Origin: [Mycobacterium] stephanolepidis
GTDB lineage: Bacteria; Actinomycetota; Actinomycetes; Mycobacteriales; Mycobacteriaceae
Direction: 5' to 3'
Length of the DNA: 64,000 nt
Assembly (NCBI RefSeq): GCF_002356335.1
Contig: NZ_AP018165.1
Coordinates: 1,736,001-1,800,000 of the forward strand
The translations under genes and the position numbers were made by a program. Positions 47,906-57,420 of the stretch are shown here, piece by piece (position 1 is the first letter of the stretch; the number at the start of each line of letters is the position of its first letter). Under the pieces are notes generated by a model. It saw nothing but the letters and a program-made list of their open reading frames with translations. It was not told the DNA's origin and made no database searches.

Positions 47906-47980
47906 GGGCGTGTAGCTCAGTGGTAGAGCTCTGGTTTTACACACCAGCGGTCGGGGGTTCGAAACCCTCCGCGCCCACCA
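47906..47980 (+). tRNA. tRNA-Val (anticodon UAC), host of integrated element
   Basis: A 75-nt cloverleaf: 7-bp acceptor stem, D arm GCTC/GAGC, anticodon stem CTGGT/ACCAG with anticodon TAC at 47938-47940, T arm with TTCGAAA loop, encoded CCA. The segment from 47936 on is also the left attachment repeat, so integration preserved the gene. Confidence 0.95.
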
Positions 47981-47981
47981 A
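47936..47981 (+). repeat. Attachment core, left copy (attL)
   Basis: 46-bp segment from the anticodon loop to one base past CCA. It is identical to 57364-57409 by base-by-base reading. This is the usual crossover region of tRNA-targeting tyrosine integrases and marks the left boundary of the element. Confidence 0.9.
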
Positions 47982-48019
47982 TAACGTTGCAGTTCAGAGG
48001 CATTTATCGCTTCGGCCGA

Positions 48020-48048
48020 CAACCCCCGTTGTGCCGAGAGTGAGCCAA
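48020..48048 (+). repeat. Integrase arm-type site, attL side
   Basis: 29-bp segment matching 57218-57246 at 27 of 29 positions in direct orientation. It sits 39 bases inside the left attachment core. In the excised circle the two copies would flank the core, as lambda-type arm sites do. Confidence 0.55.
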
Positions 48049-48133
48049 CAGCGTGTAAATCTTGGCGGATAGACGGCTGTCGATACGTGTGTCGGGCAGA
48101 TCCCGGAACTGGTAGGTCGATACCGTTGGTGCC

Positions 48134-49051
48134 GTGAGCATGCGTGCGGACAACCTGACGGGCTCCCGTTTTGAGGAGATCCTCATTCACCTTGAGACAC
48201 AACTGCTCGCTGAACTGCCAAAGGCTCGGGCGGAGACAAGTCACGCTGGAGACAAAGGCGCCAAGGTCGAGGCTGCGACTCGCGATTTATTGAGCAAAAG
48301 GCTCCCGTCTCACCTATCGGTGGGTTGTGGGAAGGTCTACGACGCATTTGGCGGTGAGTCAGGACAGACCGACCTGGTTATCGCGAACCAAGACCAGCCG
48401 TTTACGTATCCCCGGCATGTGCCAGGCGAATATCTGCTTGAGGGAGTGTCCGCAGTTGGTGAGATCAAGTCCAAGTTGACCCTTTCGGAGGTCAAGAAGT
48501 CGATTGCTCTCGCGACTAAATACAAGTCGCTGCGACCGATTCGTCGCTCTACGGACAAGCCAAGCAACGTATCTCAGTACATGGACGAGACCGACGAAAT
48601 GCCGCCGTTTTTTCTGCTTGCCTTTGAGAGTTCGGTCTCGATCACCAAATTGACAGAACTACTTAGTGCGGTGCCGGACGTGCCACCTCCGCCCGATAAG
48701 AGCTTCCCCGATGATCATCCACAGCCCCCGATTGATGCTGTATGCATCTTGGGAAAGGGGGTTCTCTGGAACCTGCGGTGCGGCGATGGCGGGATCAAGT
48801 TCGCCGTATCTAGCGGTCCTGACAAGGGGAGATTGATCACAGGCTGGTTCGGATTTGAAACCGCCGCGCCATTGGCTTGGACGTTAAGCTGGCTACATCT
48901 CGCAATGCCGAGGATTACTCGCAGCTACCCAGTTCTGGGTCCGTACATCGTGCCAGGTAATCGAGTCGTTACGTTCTCGCCGAGCGATTCGGGCGCAGCC
49001 ACCTTGGAAGAATCAATCATTAAAGGCACTGCGCGGCAAGCGAAGTCCTGA
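48134..49051 (+). CDS. DUF6602-like putative PD-(D/E)xK nuclease, satellite cargo
   Basis: 305 residues, GTG start. A helical start with Glu47 (AKVEAATRDLL), then SGQTDLVIA (Asp80) and SAVGEIKSKL (Glu110-x-Lys112) reproduce the E...D...ExK layout of PD-(D/E)xK nucleases. The overall pattern resembles DUF6602 proteins, which occur in mobile elements and defence loci. It is the first gene inside attL, on the opposite strand to integrase, with AT-richer composition than the core. A defence or superinfection role is plausible but unproven; no methylase partner is present. Confidence 0.6.
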   Translation: MSMRADNLTGSRFEEILIHLETQLLAELPKARAETSHAGDKGAKVEAATRDLLSKRLPSHLSVGCGKVYDAFGGESGQTDLVIANQDQPFTYPRHVPGEYLLEGVSAVGEIKSKLTLSEVKKSIALATKYKSLRPIRRSTDKPSNVSQYMDETDEMPPFFLLAFESSVSITKLTELLSAVPDVPPPPDKSFPDDHPQPPIDAVCILGKGVLWNLRCGDGGIKFAVSSGPDKGRLITGWFGFETAAPLAWTLSWLHLAMPRITRSYPVLGPYIVPGNRVVTFSPSDSGAATLEESIIKGTARQAKS

Positions 49052-49056
49052 TTCGT

Positions 49057-50463
49057 TCAGCCTTTGACGAAGCCTCGTGACCGGCCCAGCAACGCATCAC
49101 CGGCGGATGCCAGCGCGTCGTCGTACACGTGCCCGTAGACACGCAGCGTCATTGCCGGGTCGTGGCCCAACCACTTAGCGGTCGCGGCGACCGTAGTTCC
49201 GCCGTCAAGCAGCATGGTCGCGGCGGTGTGTCGTGCGTCGTGAAGCCGGATGACCGGCACTCCCGCGATCTCGCAATGGCTGCGGAACATTTTGGAATAC
49301 GTCTCGGGTCGGATGGGAGTCCCATCCTCGGCGACGGCGACCAGGCCGGTATCCGGCCAGCATTCGCCAACGGCCAACCGTTCGGATGCCTGCTGTGTCT
49401 TGAGCGCCCGTAGTGCCGCCAAAATGTCGGCGGGCATAGGCAGCACCCGGCGTGAGCGCAGGGACTTTGGGTCGCCGGTTACGGTGCCCTGACCAGCGAC
49501 AATGACGCGACCCTGGGCAATACTGACGGTCCCGGCGCTGAAATCAACGTCTGTCCAACGCAATCCCAGAACCTCGGATCGGCGCAGCCCGGCGAGTGTG
49601 AGTAGCCAGCACGCAACCAGGCGGTTATCGGTGACGTGCTCGCGGAACTGTGCCGCCGCTTCTGGTGTCCACGTGGACATTTCGCGGTTGGTGACCTTGG
49701 GCCGCTCGACTAGGCGGGCAACGTTGCGGGCCACCAGGCCGCGAGCCATGGCGTCATCGAGTGCATGCGACAGCACGCCGAGCATGGTCACGACAGTGCG
49801 GTTGCTGACCCCGCCTCCGACCTTGGGTCGCACTGGGTCGCCAGGCTGTGCGGCGGCATACCGACCGCGCCCGACCCGCAGCACGTCACCGCTGGCTACC
49901 AGCCGCTCTAAAGCCTTGGTTCCGGGATTGCCAAACGCGGCGAATAACTCGCCATACGCCGCACCATTGGGCTGTGCGCGTAGATAGGCGAGAACCTCAG
50001 CGCCGCGATGACCTCGCTTGTCGCGTTGTGCGGTTGGTTCACCGGACAGCCGCAGCGTGACCAATGAGTCAACATCGGCTGTACGCAGGTGTTGGAGAGG
50101 TATTGCTCCGAGATGCTCAATCACGGGCTTGAGGTGGTCGCGGTATCCGGCGCGGGTGTTGGGGCGCACGTCGCGCCGCCCATCGAGCCACTCGTTTAGG
50201 TACTCGGTGACGGTTGTCCGATCACGTCTGACAAACGTGCCCGCCGCGACTTCGGTAGTGACGCGCCGGTACTCGCTGCGGGCTTTGGCCAGTGTCGGAA
50301 AGGTGAAGCGTTGACGCTCACGCGATCCGTCGGGACGGATGCCAATGTCTACCTGAAATGCGTAGGTGGTGGTGCCGTTCTTGGCTGTCCGCTTAGTGAT
50401 CGGATCGGTGCGCCGGGTTCGCTTACGCGGCTGTGGTGCTGCGGTGTCTTCGGGCATGGTCAC
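49057..50463 (-). CDS. Tyrosine integrase with inserted winged-helix-like segment
   Basis: 468 residues. N-terminal arm-binding domain (about 20-80), core-binding domain starting about 83, catalytic domain 262-468. Catalytic residues: Arg294 (GLRRSE), Lys333 (DPKSLRS), His408-x-x-Arg411 (HDARH), His434 (WLGHD), Tyr443 (RVYGHVY). The core-binding domain is interrupted at about 142-218 by a segment with EVLAYLRAQPNGAAYGEL and LERLVASGDVLRVGRGRY that reads as a winged helix. It overlaps the upstream minus-strand gene by 4 bases. Expected to recombine attP with the tRNA-Val gene. Confidence 0.95.
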   Translation of the reverse strand: MTMPEDTAAPQPRKRTRRTDPITKRTAKNGTTTYAFQVDIGIRPDGSRERQRFTFPTLAKARSEYRRVTTEVAAGTFVRRDRTTVTEYLNEWLDGRRDVRPNTRAGYRDHLKPVIEHLGAIPLQHLRTADVDSLVTLRLSGEPTAQRDKRGHRGAEVLAYLRAQPNGAAYGELFAAFGNPGTKALERLVASGDVLRVGRGRYAAAQPGDPVRPKVGGGVSNRTVVTMLGVLSHALDDAMARGLVARNVARLVERPKVTNREMSTWTPEAAAQFREHVTDNRLVACWLLTLAGLRRSEVLGLRWTDVDFSAGTVSIAQGRVIVAGQGTVTGDPKSLRSRRVLPMPADILAALRALKTQQASERLAVGECWPDTGLVAVAEDGTPIRPETYSKMFRSHCEIAGVPVIRLHDARHTAATMLLDGGTTVAATAKWLGHDPAMTLRVYGHVYDDALASAGDALLGRSRGFVKG

Positions 50464-51047
50464 TTCTCCTCGGTTGTAGCGGCTTCGTTGGTGGCCCAGT
50501 CGCGGGGGAGGAATCCACGACGTTTGGCCTCCGCGATCCAGCGGTCAACTGTCGGAATGGATGCCGGTCCGAGCTGTTCGCGGACGTATTCGCGTGGCCG
50601 CTCACCGATCGTGCGGGCAGCGATGAGTAGGTCGGCAACTTGCCGGTAGTGGACGTCATCCAACTTGCGGCGCTTGCCGCCGTCGGGTGCCCGCTCCGGC
50701 CGCAGGTCGAGAGTCGGATTGCGTAGTTCGGCCACAGTGGTAAACGCGCCATCCATGCGCGCGATCCACTGCGCCGCCGCATTGGCCAGTCGTCGCACCG
50801 GGACTTGCCGGATTGCGGCCGGACCGATCTCGACGGCGGTGATGTCGGCGGGGAGTAGGTGGAGTTCCACCAATTTCGGTGCACCGCTGCCTGTTTGAAG
50901 GCCTACTCGGTATCGGTGAGGATGCCCGACCAGACGCAGCTCAATCAGGCCGTCGGGGTTACCGCGCGTGCCGCTGACGCGGCGGATGCTCTCCGGAATC
51001 ACGTCACCCTTGATCGCTCTCGGCTGGTAGCGACTATCAGAACTCAT
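50460..51047 (-). CDS. Putative element regulator upstream of integrase
   Basis: 195 residues from ATG 51047. N-terminal half has a small beta-rich domain (GLIELRLVGHPHRYRVG), C-terminal half is basic and helical with RTIGERPREYVREQLG and SIPTVDRWIAEAKRRGFLP, which resembles a helix-turn-helix as seen in actinophage small DNA-binding proteins. Coupled to integrase by a 4-base overlap and divergent from excisionase, so a repressor or recombination-directionality role is likely. No named family recognised. Confidence 0.55.
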   Translation of the reverse strand: MSSDSRYQPRAIKGDVIPESIRRVSGTRGNPDGLIELRLVGHPHRYRVGLQTGSGAPKLVELHLLPADITAVEIGPAAIRQVPVRRLANAAAQWIARMDGAFTTVAELRNPTLDLRPERAPDGGKRRKLDDVHYRQVADLLIAARTIGERPREYVREQLGPASIPTVDRWIAEAKRRGFLPRDWATNEAATTEEK

Positions 51048-51105
51048 ACAAAAACGATAGCAGATTGCCTGGACGAATATCACTTATCAGGGCACGATTG
51101 GGGGC

Positions 51106-51315
51106 ATGACCACACAGATATCGCCCACGTTGGACGAATTACGAAGCGGCCCGCCGACTTTGAGTGTTGAGCAGGCGGGCCGGTACCTCGGTGTCAGCCG
51201 CGCCTACGCCTATTCGATGGCCCGCGAGGGGCGGCTGCCGGTGATCGAACTCGGCACCCGGCGCGTGCGGGTACCCACGGCAGCGCTGCTCAAAATGCTG
51301 GGCGATCGCGATTAG
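51106..51315 (+). CDS. Excisionase/MerR-like DNA-binding protein
   Basis: 69 residues. TLSVEQAGRYLGVSRAYAYSMAREGRLPVIELGTRRVRVP is the helix-turn-helix plus wing of the excisionase/MerR family (HTH_17), with C-terminal AALLKMLGD. First rightward gene of the element, directly opposite the integrase operon. Expected to bend attachment DNA for excision or control the divergent promoters. Confidence 0.85.
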   Translation: MTTQISPTLDELRSGPPTLSVEQAGRYLGVSRAYAYSMAREGRLPVIELGTRRVRVPTAALLKMLGDRD

Positions 51316-51407
51316 GACTCGGCGGCGACCTGGGCTCGGGCCTGTCCACAGCAAGCTCTAGCAGCCCGGTCGTCGTCGTGAATCACCTAGTTTGCGAAAT
51401 GAAAATG

Positions 51408-51442
51408 AATACGCCCCCGGTTCCGACAACCGAGGGCGTATT
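51408..51442 (+). promoter_or_regulatory. Stable hairpin before the RepA-like gene
   Basis: AATACGCCC/GGGCGTATT and inner CGGTT/AACCG arms form a 14-bp stem with one mismatch and a 5-base loop. It ends 20 bases before the GTG start and just before the AGAGG site (51451-51455). No T-run follows, so translational or copy-number control is likelier than termination. Confidence 0.5.
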
Positions 51443-51462
51443 CCGAGATGAGAGGCCGACCA

Positions 51463-52902
51463 GTGCCCCAACAGTCAAAGGTTACCGCGAATGCCGCCAA
51501 TGGCGCGAGTGGCAACAAGGCTCCGTTTGGGTCCGTAGCAGTGGACCCGACCGCCGCAACCGCCGCGCGTTTGGATAAATGGCGTCCACACAGCTTCGCG
51601 GTAGCCGACCTCGGCACCGACGAGTGGGCACGTAATCTCCGGTTCAAGATCGAACGCACAAACGCTTACCGCAATCCCACTGTCGATGATCCGAAACTGT
51701 TTGTCCCCGGCCCCGATTGCGTGGCTGCGGGTGCCACCGACGGCCAGTTGAACGCGCTGCATCGACTGACGCCCAGTGAGGTCGCCGAGCTGCGAATTCG
51801 CGCCGCCGCGATCCGGCATGACTGCCGCAAACAAGTGGACGTGCTCGCTCGCAGCATCGCCAGCGAGCGCGACGCGGTGCCGACCCCTGAACCCGTTGGG
51901 CTCGATGCGCTGCTGACCGAGCCGGACGAGGACGCCGCCTATCGTGTCGGCGAACTGTGGCCGACCGGCGGCAGGGTGCTGCTGTCGGCGCCATACAAGG
52001 CGGGCAAATCGACGCTGGTGGGAAACGTAATTCGCGCACTGGCCGATGGCGGGCCGCTGCTGGGCCGGTTCGACACGACACCGGTCGGCAAGGTCGTGCT
52101 CATCGACACTGAACTGGACCGGCGCACCCTGCGCCGCTGGCTGCGAGATCAGGGCATCCGCAACACAGCGGTGGTATCGGTGGTCTCGCTGCGTGGTGCG
52201 GTGTCCGCATTCGACATTCTCGACCCCGCGACCCGTGCCGAGTGGGCTCAGCGCCTCGCGGGTGCCGATGTGGTGATTCTGGACTGCCTTCGCCCTGTGA
52301 TCGACGCCTTGGGGCTGTCGGAGGACAAAGACGCGGGCAAGGTGCTGGTGGCGTTCGATGCGCTCCTGGCCGAGGTCGGCGCAGATGAGGGCATGGTGGT
52401 AACCCACATGGGCCACCAGAACGGCCCGGCCCGCGAACGTGCTCGCGGTGATTCACGCCTGATGGACTGGGCCGACTCACTGTGGAAGATCGTTCGGGGC
52501 GGCGACGACACCGACGACGACACCGCGCGTTCGTCGTTCTTCTCCGCACTGGGGCGTGATGTGGCGCTGCCGGAAGGCAAGTTGGCGTTCAACTCCGACA
52601 CACGGCATCTGACCTTTGAGGGTGGCAGCCGCCGTGACTCGGTAGGCCGTGAGGCTGTACCGGAGCTGCTGGCGATGGTCGCCGCCGAACCCGGCATGTT
52701 GTCCAAGCGCGCCGCCGTGGAGCGGCTGATGGACGACCACGGCGTCGCCCGGTATGTCGCCCGGTCTGCCGTTGACGCCGCTGTGAAAGACAAGTCGGTG
52801 ATCGTGATTCCGGGGGCTCGCCGCGCTCAACTTCTCGCACCGGCAGGCGACGACGCACCGCCAATCGACCCGTTATTCCATGCCCTGGACACCCCGAAAT
52901 GA
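51463..52902 (+). CDS. RepA/RecA-like AAA ATPase, putative replication helicase
   Basis: 479 residues from GTG 51463 (AGAGG 7 bases upstream); an ATG at 51448 lies right after the hairpin. The N-terminal 160 residues are of unknown fold. Walker A APYKAGKST, Walker B DVVILDCLRPV, and VVTHMGHQNG with GDSRLMDWADSLWKI match the RepA/RecA-like hexameric ATPase group used by plasmids and satellites. A C-terminal winged-helix-like domain (LSKRAAVERLMDDHGVARYVARSAVDAAV) follows. It sits directly before the iteron array, which suggests element replication. Confidence 0.8.
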   Translation: MPQQSKVTANAANGASGNKAPFGSVAVDPTAATAARLDKWRPHSFAVADLGTDEWARNLRFKIERTNAYRNPTVDDPKLFVPGPDCVAAGATDGQLNALHRLTPSEVAELRIRAAAIRHDCRKQVDVLARSIASERDAVPTPEPVGLDALLTEPDEDAAYRVGELWPTGGRVLLSAPYKAGKSTLVGNVIRALADGGPLLGRFDTTPVGKVVLIDTELDRRTLRRWLRDQGIRNTAVVSVVSLRGAVSAFDILDPATRAEWAQRLAGADVVILDCLRPVIDALGLSEDKDAGKVLVAFDALLAEVGADEGMVVTHMGHQNGPARERARGDSRLMDWADSLWKIVRGGDDTDDDTARSSFFSALGRDVALPEGKLAFNSDTRHLTFEGGSRRDSVGREAVPELLAMVAAEPGMLSKRAAVERLMDDHGVARYVARSAVDAAVKDKSVIVIPGARRAQLLAPAGDDAPPIDPLFHALDTPK

Positions 52903-52914
52903 CATCGAGTGAAC

Positions 52915-53032
52915 GAGTGCGCCGTCAGTGTGCCGGGCACAGTCGTGCAGTAGTGCGCCAGTGTGCCTATAGGGCACTGGCACTACTGCGCACGCACAGG
53001 GCAGTGAAATTCTCCGGCGCACTGGCGCACTC
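52915..53032. other. Candidate replication origin with iterons and nested palindromes
   Basis: AGTGYGCC occurs four times forward (52916-52923, 52927-52934, 52952-52959, 52960-52967) and twice inverted as GGCGCACT (53016-53023, 53024-53031), with two shorter GGCACT half-sites between (52973-52978, 52979-52984). The outer and inner copies pair to form nested imperfect palindromes around CCTATAGGG. The 266-base gap between the RepA-like and next gene holds nothing else. This is typical of an origin bound by the adjacent replication protein. Confidence 0.55.
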
Positions 53033-53168
53033 GAAGCCGAGATGTGAAGAGGCGGTGGCAGCGGTGACGTAAACCGAATCAGTCCGCGCGCGGTGCCTCG
53101 GCTGCGTGCGGCGGCGGCAAGACAGACAGACCAGAAATCCCAACACATTCAGAATCGAGGAACGAATC

Positions 53169-53462
53169 ATGAGCCATCCGACACCCGACCCCGACATCCG
53201 CGCGGCGATCTTGAATGCGCTCACCGACGAGTATCAGCCGTGGGCAGCCGTGCGGCGGCGCATCCCTGGCAGCGACGAGACCCTGACGGCGGTTCTTCAC
53301 GAGATGTTCGAGGACTACCGACTCACTCTCATGAAGATCAGCGGCTCCCCGATAGTGCGACTGGTGTCTGACCTCGACCTGATGGGTGCCGCCGCTGAGC
53401 GAGACCGTCTGCGTCAGATGGGCTGGCCGCGTTCCCGCTGCCGCGAATTTCTCGCGGTCTGA
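53169..53462 (+). CDS. Small element protein, winged-helix-like
   Basis: 97 residues from ATG 53169 (GAGG 9 bases upstream). Helical, with AILNALTDEYQPWAAVRRRI then ILHEMFEDYRLTLMKI-type pattern, which could be a small winged helix. C-terminus RQMGWPRSRCREFLAV. No family recognised. First gene after the candidate origin. Confidence 0.5.
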   Translation: MSHPTPDPDIRAAILNALTDEYQPWAAVRRRIPGSDETLTAVLHEMFEDYRLTLMKISGSPIVRLVSDLDLMGAAAERDRLRQMGWPRSRCREFLAV

Positions 53463-53516
53463 CCCCGCACACATGTCCGGCTTAACCTGTCCGACCCCTA
53501 GAAAGGACGACACATC

Positions 53517-54236
53517 ATGTCCATCCCCGACAGGCCCGAGGCCGAGGAGAGGCAGCGCGCCGCCCACGCGCTGGACCTTCGGACTTCCGGCATGACGTAT
53601 GCGGCCGTGGCCGTCGAACTCGGATACTCCGACGAGAGCGGTCCACGAAAGGCGGTGGACCGGCTGCTATCTCGCATCGAGCACGAGGGCGCGTCCGAGC
53701 TCCGTCAACTGGAGGGGCAGCGCCTTGACGCCATGCAGCGGGCCATTTGGACACAGGCATGCGAAGGCGATATTGATTCGATCAAGGCGGTGCTGAGCGT
53801 CATGGCCCGACGCGCCAAGTTGTTCGGCATCGATGCGCCGCAGCGTGTGCAAGTGGGCGCTGATCCGGTCTCGGACCGGCAGTACGCCGAGCGGCTGACC
53901 GAACTCGTCGGTGGACTGAACCCTCGCAGCCTGCGCGACATTCTGGCGCAGTCTCCCGGCGGTGGGCCTGTGCTGGCTGCTGCGCGCCGAACGGCATCAG
54001 GTGCGGAAGATTCCCCGCCGGAGGCAGATTCGCCACTCTGCGGCCCGCTCAGCGGCGAAACGGGGACTCTTGACGAGGGTTGGTCCAATGTGGGCGGCGC
54101 TGATGGTGCTCTCACCCCCTTGCCGGATGAACCAGACGACGCCGACGATTTCAGCGACGTTCCACCGGCGGTCGCGGTGGCAGCGGAGAAGGCAGCGATG
54201 GCGGTCGTCGCCGACTGGCGAGGTGCGCACCGATGA
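53517..54236 (+). CDS. TerS-like small terminase/HTH protein
   Basis: 239 residues. The N-terminus AHALDLRTSGMTYAAVAVELGY is the helix-turn-helix of actinophage small terminase-like proteins, followed by RLLSRIEHEGASELRQLEGQRLD and a helical region ending LFGIDAP, also typical. The C-terminal 100 residues are acidic and Pro/Ser-rich. No large terminase accompanies it. Phage satellites carry stand-alone TerS homologues to redirect helper packaging, so this is a candidate for that function. The next gene overlaps by 4 bases. Confidence 0.6.
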   Translation: MSIPDRPEAEERQRAAHALDLRTSGMTYAAVAVELGYSDESGPRKAVDRLLSRIEHEGASELRQLEGQRLDAMQRAIWTQACEGDIDSIKAVLSVMARRAKLFGIDAPQRVQVGADPVSDRQYAERLTELVGGLNPRSLRDILAQSPGGGPVLAAARRTASGAEDSPPEADSPLCGPLSGETGTLDEGWSNVGGADGALTPLPDEPDDADDFSDVPPAVAVAAEKAAMAVVADWRGAHR

Positions 54237-54559
54237 ATCGAAACTGGCTGGGGAGGCTGCGGGATCGCGGGGCCTCCACGCCCGAACCCTCTTCGGTTCC
54301 AACCGAAGAGACCACCATCGCCCCGGACGAAGCACGGACGGAAGTCGAGGAATCGGAGACCTCGACGGGCGAACCGGTTCGGCTGTTCGGATCGCAATAC
54401 CGGATCAAGATCGATCAGGCCGACGTGATCGCCGAGCGCTTTGGCCCCTCGGGCATCGGGCGCACCGTCGGAGGCAATGGCACCGACCGGTTCCGACGGC
54501 GGCGCGACGCTATGGTGCGCAGTCGGGGTTATGGCGAGGTCCTATTCGGCGACGACTAG
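54233..54559 (+). CDS. Small acidic-to-basic element protein
   Basis: 108 residues, ATG overlapping the TerS-like stop (ATGA). N-terminal half is Glu/Thr-rich and probably disordered; C-terminal half has GSQYRIKIDQADVIAERFG and a basic RFRRRRDAMVRSRGYGE tail suggesting nucleic-acid binding. No family recognised. Coupling to the TerS-like gene suggests a shared packaging or regulatory function. Confidence 0.5.
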   Translation: MNRNWLGRLRDRGASTPEPSSVPTEETTIAPDEARTEVEESETSTGEPVRLFGSQYRIKIDQADVIAERFGPSGIGRTVGGNGTDRFRRRRDAMVRSRGYGEVLFGDD

Positions 54560-54658
54560 GGAAAATCGCGAAAGGTGTTGCGCAAGGCGGTATTTAAGAC
54601 TCGCCGATAAGGTGGCAGTCGCCGCTGCGGTGCACCGTCGAGTGTCACGATGGACTGC

Positions 54659-54889
54659 ATGAACGCGACAATCGTTGACCCCGCGAGCCGTTCGGCGTCG
54701 AGCTGGAGTGCCACCCTCGCGTCGTTGAAATCGCGCGGAGCGCCGGACACCGACGCCCGCGTCATCGAGGCCCGCCAAGGCCTCGCCTTCCATCGGGTTG
54801 CCCGAGCCGTCGAGCGCGAACGGGGGCAGCTCAGCCGTGCTGGTGCCGAACGCCTTCGCTCGGCGATCAGCGAGGCGGTGACCTCGTGA
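54659..54889 (+). CDS. Small helical element protein
   Basis: 76 residues from ATG 54659. Two charged helices (TLASLKSRGAPDTDARVIEAR and LAFHRVARAVERERGQL), no motif known. A 16-codon ORF (GTG 54612, AAGG upstream) ends with a stop overlapping this ATG, which supports 54659 over the in-frame ATG at 54650. The following gene overlaps by 4 bases (GTGA). The preceding 100-base gap holds only that mini-ORF. Confidence 0.5.
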   Translation: MNATIVDPASRSASSWSATLASLKSRGAPDTDARVIEARQGLAFHRVARAVERERGQLSRAGAERLRSAISEAVTS

Positions 54890-55557
54890 ATCTCCGGACG
54901 CTGCGCAACCGACCAGCCGCCCCGAAGGCACCACCGTCACCTGTGTTCTCGCAGGCTGAGCTACGGGGGCGGCGTCGGAAGCACCTCCCGATCCACCTGG
55001 GCGGGTCCTGGTCACTGAGCGGCGAAGTTCGTGAGGTCTGCGGACCGGTCGCACACGAAGTGTCGAGACTGCCCAGGCCCTCGGCGGTTCGCAAGGGCGT
55101 TGACGGGGTGGCCGATGCGGTCGCGGACGTTGTCGCGGCATCCGCGCAGCTGTTGCTAACATCGAATGCGCCGGACAGCACCCGACAGGCTGCGGCCGAT
55201 ATTCTCGCCCGCCCGCACGTGCCTGAAATCACCGCTGAGCAGCTCTCCAGCGGAACGTGGGCGCATATCCTGGCTACCTATGCCGATCAGGTCAGCACCC
55301 CGCTTGCAAAGTTGCTGGCAAGTGCACATCCTCCGGGTGCCGACGCGCTGCGGGGCAACCCGAGCGCCTCCGAGCGGATCGAGAGAGCGCTGCGTGGGCT
55401 GGATGCGGCGGTGCTGGTTCTGGAGCGGGCGCTGCCGAGAATCGCTGAGCGGCAAGCGCTCCCGAGTATTTCGGAGTTCAACGCCGCGCTGCGGGCTCAG
55501 GTTGACGCCGAACGCCAAGCGCGAGTTGAACGCAAGCTGACGGGGGTGCCCTCATGA
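54886..55557 (+). CDS. Element protein of unknown function
   Basis: 223 residues, GTG start overlapping the upstream stop. Basic Pro-rich N-terminus, then an Ala/Val-rich helical middle (GVDGVADAVADVVAASAQLLL) and a C-terminal coiled-coil-like helix (ALRAQVDAERQARVERKL). No signal peptide. Similar small helical proteins occur in actinophage early regions, but I do not recognise the family. Overlaps the next gene by 4 bases. Confidence 0.5.
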   Translation: MNLRTLRNRPAAPKAPPSPVFSQAELRGRRRKHLPIHLGGSWSLSGEVREVCGPVAHEVSRLPRPSAVRKGVDGVADAVADVVAASAQLLLTSNAPDSTRQAAADILARPHVPEITAEQLSSGTWAHILATYADQVSTPLAKLLASAHPPGADALRGNPSASERIERALRGLDAAVLVLERALPRIAERQALPSISEFNAALRAQVDAERQARVERKLTGVPS

Positions 55558-55757
55558 GTTATCACCCGCCCGAAACACCTGGTCAGTGCCGTATTTGCGC
55601 GGGGCCATGCGCGACATACAAGGGTTCCGTCCACCGCTGGACCTGCGTGAGCTGCTTGACCGCGTACATCGCGAACGGTGCTCAACGTCGCACCGAACGT
55701 GAGCACCAAGGGCCGGTCCTGCGCCACCGCTCCGAAACTATCTCTCCAGTGCGATGA
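55554..55757 (+). CDS. Small zinc-ribbon-like protein
   Basis: 67 residues. CRICAGPC and WTCVSC give a Cys-x2-Cys...Cys-x2-Cys zinc ribbon pattern of the kind found in phage and satellite DNA-binding accessory proteins. ATG overlaps the preceding stop (ATGA), and its own stop overlaps a 32-codon gene. Probably nucleic-acid or protein binding. Confidence 0.55.
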   Translation: MSYHPPETPGQCRICAGPCATYKGSVHRWTCVSCLTAYIANGAQRRTEREHQGPVLRHRSETISPVR

Positions 55758-55852
55758 AAGGTGACCCCGAGGTCGGTCGCGGTCTGGCTGCGGGCCGCGC
55801 GGCCAACCTCGGGATTCACCGCACCCAACTCACAGAACGGATATCGCAATGA
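55754..55852 (+). CDS. 32-residue microprotein in overlapping operon
   Basis: ATG 55754 overlaps the zinc-ribbon stop by ATGA and the TGA at 55850-55852 overlaps the next ATG by ATGA. The product begins MKGDPEVGRGLAAGRAANLG and ends with TERISQ. Four-base junctions on both sides are unlikely by chance and argue that it is a real, translationally coupled gene. Function unknown. Confidence 0.5.
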   Translation: MKGDPEVGRGLAAGRAANLGIHRTQLTERISQ

Positions 55853-56445
55853 CGATCACCACCACACCCCGCCTGCCGACCCGCGCCGATCTGGCGCGGC
55901 GGCTTAAAACCCGTGAGCTTGATGAACTCGACATTGCCGTGCATGAGGCGGCGCACACCGTCTCCGGCATCCTGAGCGGCGGCACCCTGGCCACTGCCTT
56001 GGTCACCCGTCCGGGCCGCGTCGTCCAGCACGTCCATGGCCTCACCAAGTTCCGTAATACGTTTGACCCCTACGCCCATGCGAACGTTGCCTATTGCGGG
56101 CCGTGGGGGCAGGCCACGTGGCTTGACGGCCTGCGCCGTCCCACGGTGGCGACGGTGGACGCGCTGCTGGCAGCTGGTGGGCGATGCGACGCCGCCGCCA
56201 TCGACGCGTCGGGGGGTATGCGCCGAACCATCGACGTACCCGCACTAGAGCACCTGATGGGCCGCTGCTGGCCGAACGTCCTCGGTCTGGCAGGGCAGCT
56301 GTACTCACGCGGTGAGATCACCCACGACGACGCCCTCGCCGCGCTTGGATTGAGCCGCGATAACGCCCCCATGGGCCTGGCATGCATCAAGGCCGGAGAA
56401 CGGCCTGGCACCTTCCGAATCCACGAGCCGCACATGCGCTTCTGA
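55849..56445 (+). CDS. HExxH putative metallopeptidase
   Basis: 198 residues. VHEAAHTVSGILSGG holds an HExxH zinc motif like that of the M41/M50 peptidase-like proteins seen in actinophages and integrated elements; ANVAYCGPWGQATW resembles the downstream region of those proteins. No AAA domain or membrane segment is present, so it is a stand-alone domain. It could process a regulator or phage protein. Activity is inferred. Confidence 0.6.
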   Translation: MTITTTPRLPTRADLARRLKTRELDELDIAVHEAAHTVSGILSGGTLATALVTRPGRVVQHVHGLTKFRNTFDPYAHANVAYCGPWGQATWLDGLRRPTVATVDALLAAGGRCDAAAIDASGGMRRTIDVPALEHLMGRCWPNVLGLAGQLYSRGEITHDDALAALGLSRDNAPMGLACIKAGERPGTFRIHEPHMRF

Positions 56446-56487
56446 TTCGCGTACTTCCGTCGGCGGCGTGACGTATGGTCCGCCGAT

Positions 56488-57189
56488 GTGACCACCGAAA
56501 ACGCCGATGACAAGGCTAGTTTGCCTGCCAATTCCAAGATGAGCCGCGCGGAGTTGTTCGCTCTGCTCGGCGCGGTGTTCGGCGTCCTCCCGATCTTGCT
56601 CTGCGCGATGCGAGTGATGATCGTGGCGCGCGGCGAACTCAACTCGCTGCGCACGCTAGTGCAGAACCTCGACGTGAAGGCGTTGGTGCTCGCCACCCTT
56701 CTTCCTGTCGGCGGCACTGTGATGCTCTGGGTGCAATTCGCTCTGCTCATGTCGTTGTTAACAAAAGGCGCTCATGATCAGTATAAAAGAATCCTTGGGA
56801 CATCGTTTATATGTTTGCTCCCATTCACTATTGCCATCCTGGGGATTGGCACGCCGACGCGCCAGTTGCTCATAAACATCGCGCTACTGGTCTTGCTCAT
56901 CATCGCGATGCTTGCGGCAAACAGGATGCGAGGAATGCTAAGGAGCCTGGTCATCTGGTTGTGTGCCGTTGGGATGATGGTCGGCGTGGCCGCAGTAGTT
57001 GGCACCGTCGTTACCCAAAGCGACTTGTGGGTTCCTTTTGAACGCATCGCGCTGGAGGACGGATCGGTTGTCGAGGGGTACATCCTCGGTGTGGACGAGG
57101 AATGGACCCGCTACATGGACTCGCGTGACCGCAGCATTCATATCGTTCACACCGACAAGGTGAAGACACGCGACCTGATCAACAGATGA
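56488..57189 (+). CDS. Multi-pass membrane protein at the right end of the element
   Basis: 233 residues, GTG start. After a 20-residue cytoplasmic start there are about five membrane helices (about 22-45, 62-85, 100-120, 125-143, 150-172), then a 60-residue soluble C-terminal domain (SVVEGYILGVDEEWTRYMD). Codon use is AT-richer than the neighbouring satellite genes, as for the DUF6602 gene at the other end. The place next to attR and the membrane topology suggest superinfection exclusion or abortive-infection cargo. No family recognised. Confidence 0.55.
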   Translation: MTTENADDKASLPANSKMSRAELFALLGAVFGVLPILLCAMRVMIVARGELNSLRTLVQNLDVKALVLATLLPVGGTVMLWVQFALLMSLLTKGAHDQYKRILGTSFICLLPFTIAILGIGTPTRQLLINIALLVLLIIAMLAANRMRGMLRSLVIWLCAVGMMVGVAAVVGTVVTQSDLWVPFERIALEDGSVVEGYILGVDEEWTRYMDSRDRSIHIVHTDKVKTRDLINR

Positions 57190-57217
57190 CGGGTGCTCCG
57201 CGAACGCCCGTTCGATT

Positions 57218-57246
57218 CAACCCCCGCTGTGCCGAGAGTGTGCCAA
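57218..57246 (+). repeat. Integrase arm-type site, attR side
   Basis: Direct copy (27 of 29) of 48020-48048, located 117 bases inside the right attachment core. The 174-base region between the last gene and attR contains nothing else I can identify. Confidence 0.55.
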
Positions 57247-57363
57247 GACGCACATATTCGTGCGGTCACGCAGTGGAAAAATCGATACCAAACCCGCTGC
57301 CTTGCATGCGGTTATGTGGACGCGATGACACGTACGGATACGCACTAGACGGTGCTAATCGCA

Positions 57364-57409
57364 TTTACACACCAGCGGTCGGGGGTTCGAAACCCTCCGC
57401 GCCCACCAA
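57364..57409 (+). repeat. Attachment core, right copy (attR)
   Basis: Second copy of the 46-bp tRNA-Val 3' segment. It lacks the 5' half of a tRNA, so it is a junction scar and not a gene. Chromosomal genes resume at 57421. Confidence 0.9.
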
Positions 57410-57420
57410 GAAGTGCGGGT

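Follow-up and report, generated by a model that had tools for sequence, protein, structure and literature searches.

A likely phage satellite at a tRNA-Val gene of [Mycobacterium] stephanolepidis, and a family of related islands in Mycobacterium

We argue that a 9.43-kb island in the genome of [Mycobacterium] stephanolepidis is probably a phage satellite, similar to the phage-inducible chromosomal islands (PICIs), and that it represents a compact subtype, without a large terminase (TerL), of a larger family of islands. We would give this reading roughly three chances in four. The island lies at a tRNA-Val gene within the stretch that we analysed (the window: 64,000 nucleotides, positions 1,736,001 to 1,800,000 of NZ_AP018165.1, assembly GCF_002356335.1), and the reading is based on its anatomy, tRNA site, family, gene order, homologies, and trees. 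Features and their coordinates within the window are collected in Table 1; numbers that begin with G or L are our own labels for genomes and loci.

The only tRNA gene in the 64-kb window is tRNA-Val(tac). The exact 46-bp repeats that bound the island are part of a longer direct repeat (47936-47984 and 57364-57412, 48 of 49 positions identical, spacing 9428), and between them are 13 genes, as called by our in-house procedure for open reading frames (ORFs). In order, these encode a DUF6602 cargo protein, an integrase, p3, an excisionase, an AAA_25 ATPase (followed by an iteron cluster), p6, a small terminase (TerS), p8-p12, and the membrane protein p13. An earlier note on this DNA had described the repeats, the 9.4-kb segment, the integrase, the excisionase, the replication-type ATPase, and the iterons, and we confirm all of these, with their positions. 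It had also reported no structural, portal, large-terminase, or conjugation genes. Our family scans agree: portal, capsid, TerL, and conjugation families had no match among the 13 island proteins (10 were scanned with Pfam, PHROGs, and NCBIfam and the remaining 3 with Pfam only, 2 of these 3 also with PADLOC). As is expected of a PICI, we found no lytic or phage structural genes among the 13. The site itself is a variable insertion point, because in the nearest genome that we compared (G001, whose flanks are 95.3% and 93.5% identical to the window), the same tRNA-Val is separated from the right flank by about 10.4 kb of different DNA that has no island markers. That insertion (L123 4090-14508, 10.4 kb) is unrelated to the island and has, by eye, a resolvase-like gene.

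PICIs are packaged by way of their own TerS or of a helper's cos or pac site, and this island has a TerS gene, which we identified by synteny. Homologues of the protein are found in 202 phage records (148 from Mycobacterium, 22 from Gordonia), where, among the matches listed, they are annotated as helix-turn-helix (HTH) or DNA-binding proteins, as "Rnase E", or as hypothetical. In Streptomyces phage KimJongPhill and Thermobifida phage P1312, genes for members of the family lie directly upstream of TerL and overlap it, and the KimJongPhill gene is annotated as a terminase small subunit; the link to the window's protein runs through P0017, which matches that protein with E = 3e-9. Similarly, in 7 of 8 prophage head regions from the genus, a TerS of a shorter type, along with a protein that we call c10, starts 3.2-5.3 kb before TerL (from hit start to hit start). 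The fold that AlphaFold2 (AF2) predicts is an HTH plus a long helical hairpin, and the VIA-align matches that span both parts are the small terminases of G20C and P74-26. Overall, the identification as TerS, which the earlier note had suggested, seems well supported, mainly by the synteny of homologues and with the fold as further support; an action in packaging is what we infer from it.

The earlier note had proposed to look for co-occurring islands at tRNA genes, and these do exist. The protein p10, which we use as the signature of the family, is found in 43 of 297 Mycobacterium genomes, of which 41 (about one in seven) are strong matches; relatives of the ATPase are found in 53. The two weak p10 genomes were dropped (E of about 3e-4, with the matches inside frames of 1181 and 1340 amino acids). 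Outside the genus, p10 is rare: across genomes of the order, it is present in 3 of 397 at E <= 1e-10, and 2 of these 3 belong to the genus; p10 also occurs in Williamsia and Nocardia loci. We classified 49 p10 loci from the window, Mycobacterium genomes, Williamsia, and Nocardia. These are fetched stretches rather than a random sample, and they include contig pieces, some ended by the contig, and one degraded locus (G069a). Among the 49, we found TerS in 43, c10 in 40, p12 in 46, the ATPase in 33, the integrase in 32, TerL in 37, and a homologue of a capsid pentamer protein (c23) in 34. Markers for portal, protease, scaffold, and major capsid (hexamer) proteins were found in none of the 49, whereas in eight prophage head regions the same markers detect the portal in all eight and the capsid in seven. 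The 41 p10 genomes do have 51 HK97-type capsid matches (in 26 genomes) and 12 SPP1-type portal matches (in 10 genomes), and wherever one of these shares a contig with p10, at least 26 kb separates the two.

Ten islands that carry TerL and are bounded at both ends are 14.6-17.2 kb long and lie at tRNA-Val, Ala, Arg, Asn, or Leu. We also searched PHROGs with large ORFs of the islands that had no label. Among these were 63 ORFs of at least 200 amino acids between the outermost markers, with L126x excluded, for which 25 of 81 matched families were listed; 10 of the 63 also had a scan of their own. The matches in these scans were to recombinases, methyltransferases, primases, helicases, and nucleases, and in one case to a minor tail protein. 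Separately, a 5.0-kb element at tRNA-Leu (L187 8757-13793, in G200) has only these of the family's markers: the integrase, p9, p10 and the pentamer homologue in a single frame, and p12.

The window island belongs to a subtype with a distinctive, longer TerS. This long TerS is present in six loci (the window, G157, G140, E740, Nocardia, and G046; those of G140 and E740 are near-copies). Within the stretches covered, TerL accompanies the long TerS in 0 of 6 loci and the short TerS in 34 of 39 (Fisher's exact P = 6e-5, not corrected for relatedness), and c10 accompanies the long TerS in 0 of 6 and the short TerS in 39 of 39. The window island has neither TerL nor c23. Three long-TerS islands are bounded at a tRNA, and these are short (8.45, 8.66, and 9.43 kb), while three other bounded islands without TerL are 5.0, 14.6, and 16.1 kb. 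The 8.45-kb island of G157 lies at tRNA-Ala and has the same gene order as the window island; the 8.66-kb island of G046 lies at tRNA-Val, encodes a different helicase where the ATPase would be, and has the pentamer homologue. By analogy with the Staphylococcus aureus pathogenicity islands (SaPIs) that carry TerS, this compact subtype would rely on the TerL of a helper. The G140 locus (L034 12442-17980) also has cargo, namely AAA_5 and DUF2357/PDDEXK_7 proteins (McrBC-like) and a C5 methyltransferase, and its integrase is in two ORFs.

Beyond TerS and p8 is a group of genes, p9-p12, that appears to be the family's own. A search of 50,697 phage records with the p10 relative from G089 gave no match, and our p12 queries found no match in the phage records either. 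An HExxH motif is present in 9 of the 9 p12 members listed, and a p12 relative has weak matches to M50 and M41 peptidases, below the Pfam cut-offs. The p12 proteins of G040 and L191 open with a segment that resembles the N-terminal 60 residues of major capsid proteins from phages: the segment from G040 is 57% identical to prophiT48-1 over 54 amino acids (E = 5e-15) and has matches in all eight prophage head regions. Also, in L166 and L187 a single open frame runs through both p10 and c23. The capsid-like start of p12, the shared frames, and the homologies to candidate helper phages link the p10-c23-p12 module to phage heads.

Which phages might be the helpers? The TerL of the G089 island is 56-59% identical to those of prophiT46-2, prophiT49-1, Dori, and the kin listed with them. 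The short TerS of G293 matches 7 phage records, all of which are within the nine best records for TerL. Over its full length, the c23 protein of G160 shares 66% identity with Phunky's "major capsid pentamer protein", whose gene neighbours that of the hexamer. There are c23 homologues in 501 phage records, 469 of them from Mycobacterium, which is the same number as for TerL (though these need not be the same records). Phages like those of cluster B, Sour, Dori, and prophiT46-2 have TerS, TerL, and pentamer homologues in common with the island family; with complete records of about 60-70 kb, they are candidate helpers rather than family members. The helpers are likely to be phages of the cluster-B, Sourvirus, Dori, or prophiT46-2 kind. 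There are also candidate helpers among prophages: the head regions at L206, L209-L213, L217, and L224, viewed over stretches of 12-20 kb, have the order TerS-c10-TerL-portal-MuF-capsid (TerS was not seen in L212).

If the island is a satellite, then we imagine that it works as follows. The repeats show that it integrated into tRNA-Val, and with its integrase and excisionase it could also leave. A helper phage would induce it, and the AAA_25 ATPase may replicate it from the iteron cluster. TerS would mark the island's DNA for packaging by the helper's large terminase, into a shell that is made by the helper and possibly remodelled. The p9-p12 proteins most likely act on the assembly of the helper's head. 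The helper would supply the portal, the hexamer, the tail, and, for the window island, TerL; larger members of the family come with a TerL and, in many cases, a pentamer homologue as well. A more specific idea, to which we would give somewhat less than even odds, is that the family does more than mark its DNA, without making a whole shell itself: it brings a packaging motor (TerS and mostly TerL), often its own version of the pentamer, p10, and the HExxH protein, and that it rebuilds the helper's head from the vertices, borrowing the hexamer, the portal, and the tail. The window island would then be a stripped form that keeps TerS and p9-p12.

Several observations weigh against the satellite reading or its parts. 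The iteron cluster is found in just 4 of 39 loci that have the ATPase. PHROGs names the family of the putative TerS (phrog_645) "Rnase E"; its homologue is distant from TerL on the linear maps of Sour, Dori, and prophiT49-1 (in Dori and prophiT49-1 it is of the short type), and in these it is annotated as a DNA-binding/HTH protein or as "Rnase E"; the VIA matches have middling Z scores (6-7), with an rmsd near 9; Foldseek found no match to the model in the PDB at E <= 0.001; and the match of the short TerS to Dori and T46-type proteins covers about one third of the query. TerL was not seen in 12 of the 49 p10 loci, for some because the contig ends, and five islands with the short TerS likewise show no TerL. 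The frames that join p10 and c23 may reflect a mere lost stop, because there is an internal ATG. A p10 island in G024 encodes a minor-tail-like protein (L185 6125-7966, phrog_746); this gene adjoins, by eye, a phosphatase-like gene. Our functions for p9-p13 are guesses. Finally, the lack of structural and large-terminase genes that the earlier note reported stands for the window island, but not for the sister islands that carry TerL or the pentamer homologue, as most do. Such packaging and shell genes in relatives touch what the note itself had named as a refutation (structural phage genes in relatives, or a decayed full prophage), although the absence of portal and hexamer markers from all 49 loci and the TerL tree point the other way.

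We considered whether the island might be a prophage that decayed, losing its head, tail, and lysis genes, which would account for the phage homologues of its TerS and helicase and of its relatives' TerL and pentamer proteins. The TerS-c10-TerL order is likewise found in the head regions of prophages. Nevertheless, the architecture recurs in 41 genomes, our p10 and p12 queries had no phage match, and there are no stops inside the island's main genes. We also built a TerL tree with 57 rows (36 from islands, 10 from phages, 7 from prophages, and 4 unclear), in which the 11 nearest phage and prophage TerLs form one clade (SH-aLRT 99) nested among island TerLs, which make up several deep clades; another six phages fall outside the clade of 11. 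This was a quick tree, without bootstrap and with long-branch warnings, but as it stands it speaks against a recent decay of prophages as the islands' origin, and we think it quite improbable that the window island is a decayed prophage. The pentamer tree counts against us: phage and island rows are intermixed. Because the phage rows are scattered over several places, it looks as if pentamer proteins had been exchanged with different phages.

Because the window island has neither TerL nor the pentamer homologue, it could instead be a reduced and immobile derivative of a TerL-bearing satellite, one that lost both and persists for the sake of its cargo. TerL is present in most p10 loci, the island is just 9.4 kb, and there are cargo genes at both of its ends. 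We consider this unlikely, as the genes for integrase, excisionase, ATPase, TerS, and p9-p12 are all open frames, and similar compact arrangements recur at another tRNA (G157) and with another helicase (G046). Also, the distinct long TerS was not seen together with TerL (0 of 6), as would be expected if it works with the TerL of a helper. Another type of element that uses tRNA sites, and that has an integrase, an excisionase, and a replication initiator, is the actinomycete integrative and conjugative element (AICE). That the island shares these features and is moved by conjugation, as an AICE-like or integrative mobilisable element, seems very improbable to us: it has packaging genes, and the scanned island proteins matched neither a relaxase nor an FtsK/TraB-like or any further conjugation family.

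Table 1. Features of the island and their positions in the window
Feature	Coordinates	Strand	Evidence and remarks
tRNA-Val(tac), integration site	47906..47980	+	ARAGORN; its 3' part is the left attachment repeat
Left attachment repeat, 46 bp exact	47936..47981	+	Repeat comparison
p1, cargo: DUF6602, PD-(D/E)XK/NucC-like nuclease, possible defence gene	48134..49051	+	PF20247, E 2e-18
Tyrosine integrase	49057..50463	-	PF00589, E 3e-17; phrog_1, E 2e-59
p3, conserved, between integrase and excisionase; candidate regulator	50460..51047	-	HTH-like C-terminus, by eye only
Excisionase / AlpA-like HTH protein	51106..51315	+	TIGR01764 above cut-off; HTH_17; divergent from p3 and integrase
AAA_25 replication ATPase (RepA/DnaB-like helicase)	51448..52902	+	PF13481 AAA_25, E 3e-20
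Iteron cluster, AGTGYGCC on both strands; candidate replication origin	52916..53031	.	Directly after the ATPase gene
p6, small conserved protein	53169..53462	+	13/49 p10 loci
Small terminase (TerS), long type, well supported	53517..54236	+	phrog_645, E 1e-32; synteny of homologues; predicted fold
p8, small protein	54233..54559	+	No family matched (Pfam, PADLOC)
p9, conserved with p10	54650..54889	+	p9 or p9b in 46/49 p10 loci
p10, signature protein of the island family, all-helical	54886..55557	+	AF2 pLDDT 91.8
p11, zinc-ribbon-like CxxC protein	55554..55757	+	Cysteines seen directly; 32/49 p10 loci
p12, HExxH putative metallopeptidase	55849..56445	+	46/49 p10 loci
p13, membrane protein (by eye), cargo	56488..57189	+	Weak 2TM-effector match, E 0.02 (PADLOC)
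Right attachment repeat, 46 bp exact	57364..57409	+	Repeat comparison

As for the other genes, the integrase and p3 are transcribed leftward and the genes from the excisionase through the ATPase to TerS rightward. The protein p3, which is present in 16 of the 49 p10 loci, matched no family at E <= 1 (Pfam) or E <= 0.1 (NCBIfam), and no repressor family. The ATPase is 48-50% identical to a "DnaB-like dsDNA helicase" in five records of M. abscessus/chelonae prophages, and we found no primase in the window island. The iteron cluster has seven copies, each of 7-8 bases, of the AGTGYGCC/GGGCACT type, and it is the richest 150-bp window sampled over the 64 kb (by GTGCGCC count, with at most one mismatch). 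Clusters of at least five GTGYGCC are present in four loci (the window, G157, G040, and L163), all just past the 3' end of the ATPase gene. The gene for p6 is directly upstream of TerL in G293, G089, G160, and G272. In PADLOC, p1 matches PD_DExK (E = 2e-22) and NucC-type models (E = 8e-13 and 8e-6). The protein p13 was a singleton among the regions that we clustered. So the defence cargo that the earlier note proposed is only suggested, by the DUF6602 nuclease-like gene and a putative membrane protein.

We also found cousins of the island that do have head genes. The ATPase and the excisionase of G082 (L033) are 60% and 80% identical to those of the window; G082 carries TerL, portal, protease, scaffold, and capsid, and no tail gene was found among its scanned ORFs. 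The ATPase of G048 (L036) is 68% identical to the window's, and both G048 and G035 carry most of these head markers. At L033, L036, L059 (G035), and L078, the same ATPase is accompanied by TerL, portal, scaffold, and capsid markers (and, except in G035, by the protease), and these cousins have 10.5-13.7 kb between their tRNA repeats, much like capsid-forming PICIs. Because cousins with the same ATPase (and, in G082, the same type of excisionase) carry a head module, different types of satellites seem to swap their modules for mobility and for packaging.

If our reading is correct, then a satellite family is widespread in Mycobacterium and is invisible to the published search for integrase plus capsid. 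The candidate helpers would be among well-studied laboratory phages, so hijacking is directly testable, and there is a bearing on the phage susceptibility of mycobacteria. A pentamer protein encoded by a satellite would be a route of capsid remodelling that we did not find in the open-access literature searched. Nor, in the parts of the open-access papers that we consulted (on PICIs, Streptomyces satellites, phage-inducible chromosomal minimalist islands [PICMIs], and actinobacterial prophages, and a PLoS Biology review), did we find a description of islands with TerS, TerL, and a pentamer protein but no hexamer or portal. To that extent, the family appears to be previously undescribed. One correction to the earlier note is that candidate mycobacterial PICIs, alongside phiRv1 and phiRv2, had already been put forward by Abad et al. 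2023 (PMC10654092). As far as we could see from that paper, these are also integrase-bearing islands in Mycobacterium, some of them at tRNAs, but they were defined by an integrase plus a major capsid protein, and we found no capsid protein in the window island.

Among the satellites of actinobacteria, the Streptomyces satellites MulchRoom and MiniFlayer also have terminase genes, and PMC10690885 relates them to Zuko and KimJongPhill, the latter with a TerS of the window's family. However, going by the portions consulted of that paper, they encode portal, capsid, and scaffold and lack a primase, and their architecture is a different one. Capsid-forming PICIs, in the same source, encode their own capsid, portal, protease, and terminases. 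The cousins in G082, G048, and G035 are similar to these in carrying head genes, and they share the window's ATPase (G082 its excisionase as well), but the window island itself has TerS only, with no portal, capsid, protease, or TerL. The closest likeness is to the PICIs and SaPIs as described in what we consulted of Fillol-Salom et al. 2018 (PMC6092414): a leftward integrase, rightward regulator or replication genes, a replication module with an origin, in some cases a TerS, a lack of structural and lytic genes, and a size of about 15 kb. Those elements have a primase or Rep where the window island has the AAA_25 ATPase, the p9-p12 module is not named there, and TerL and the pentamer homologue are present in the sisters of the window island. 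Where PICIs have a divergent regulatory pair, with the integrase beside a repressor, the window has integrase and p3 diverging from the excisionase, with p3 matching no repressor family. In PICIs the replication gene is followed by the origin, and the AAA_25 gene and the iteron cluster, a candidate origin, are laid out alike, but no primase was found. Finally, the window island, at 9.43 kb, is smaller than a typical PICI, while its ten TerL-bearing relatives, at 14.6-17.2 kb, are close to that size. Otherwise, the leftward integrase, the rightward replication module, TerS, and the lack of structural and lytic genes are what the window island has in common with PICIs.

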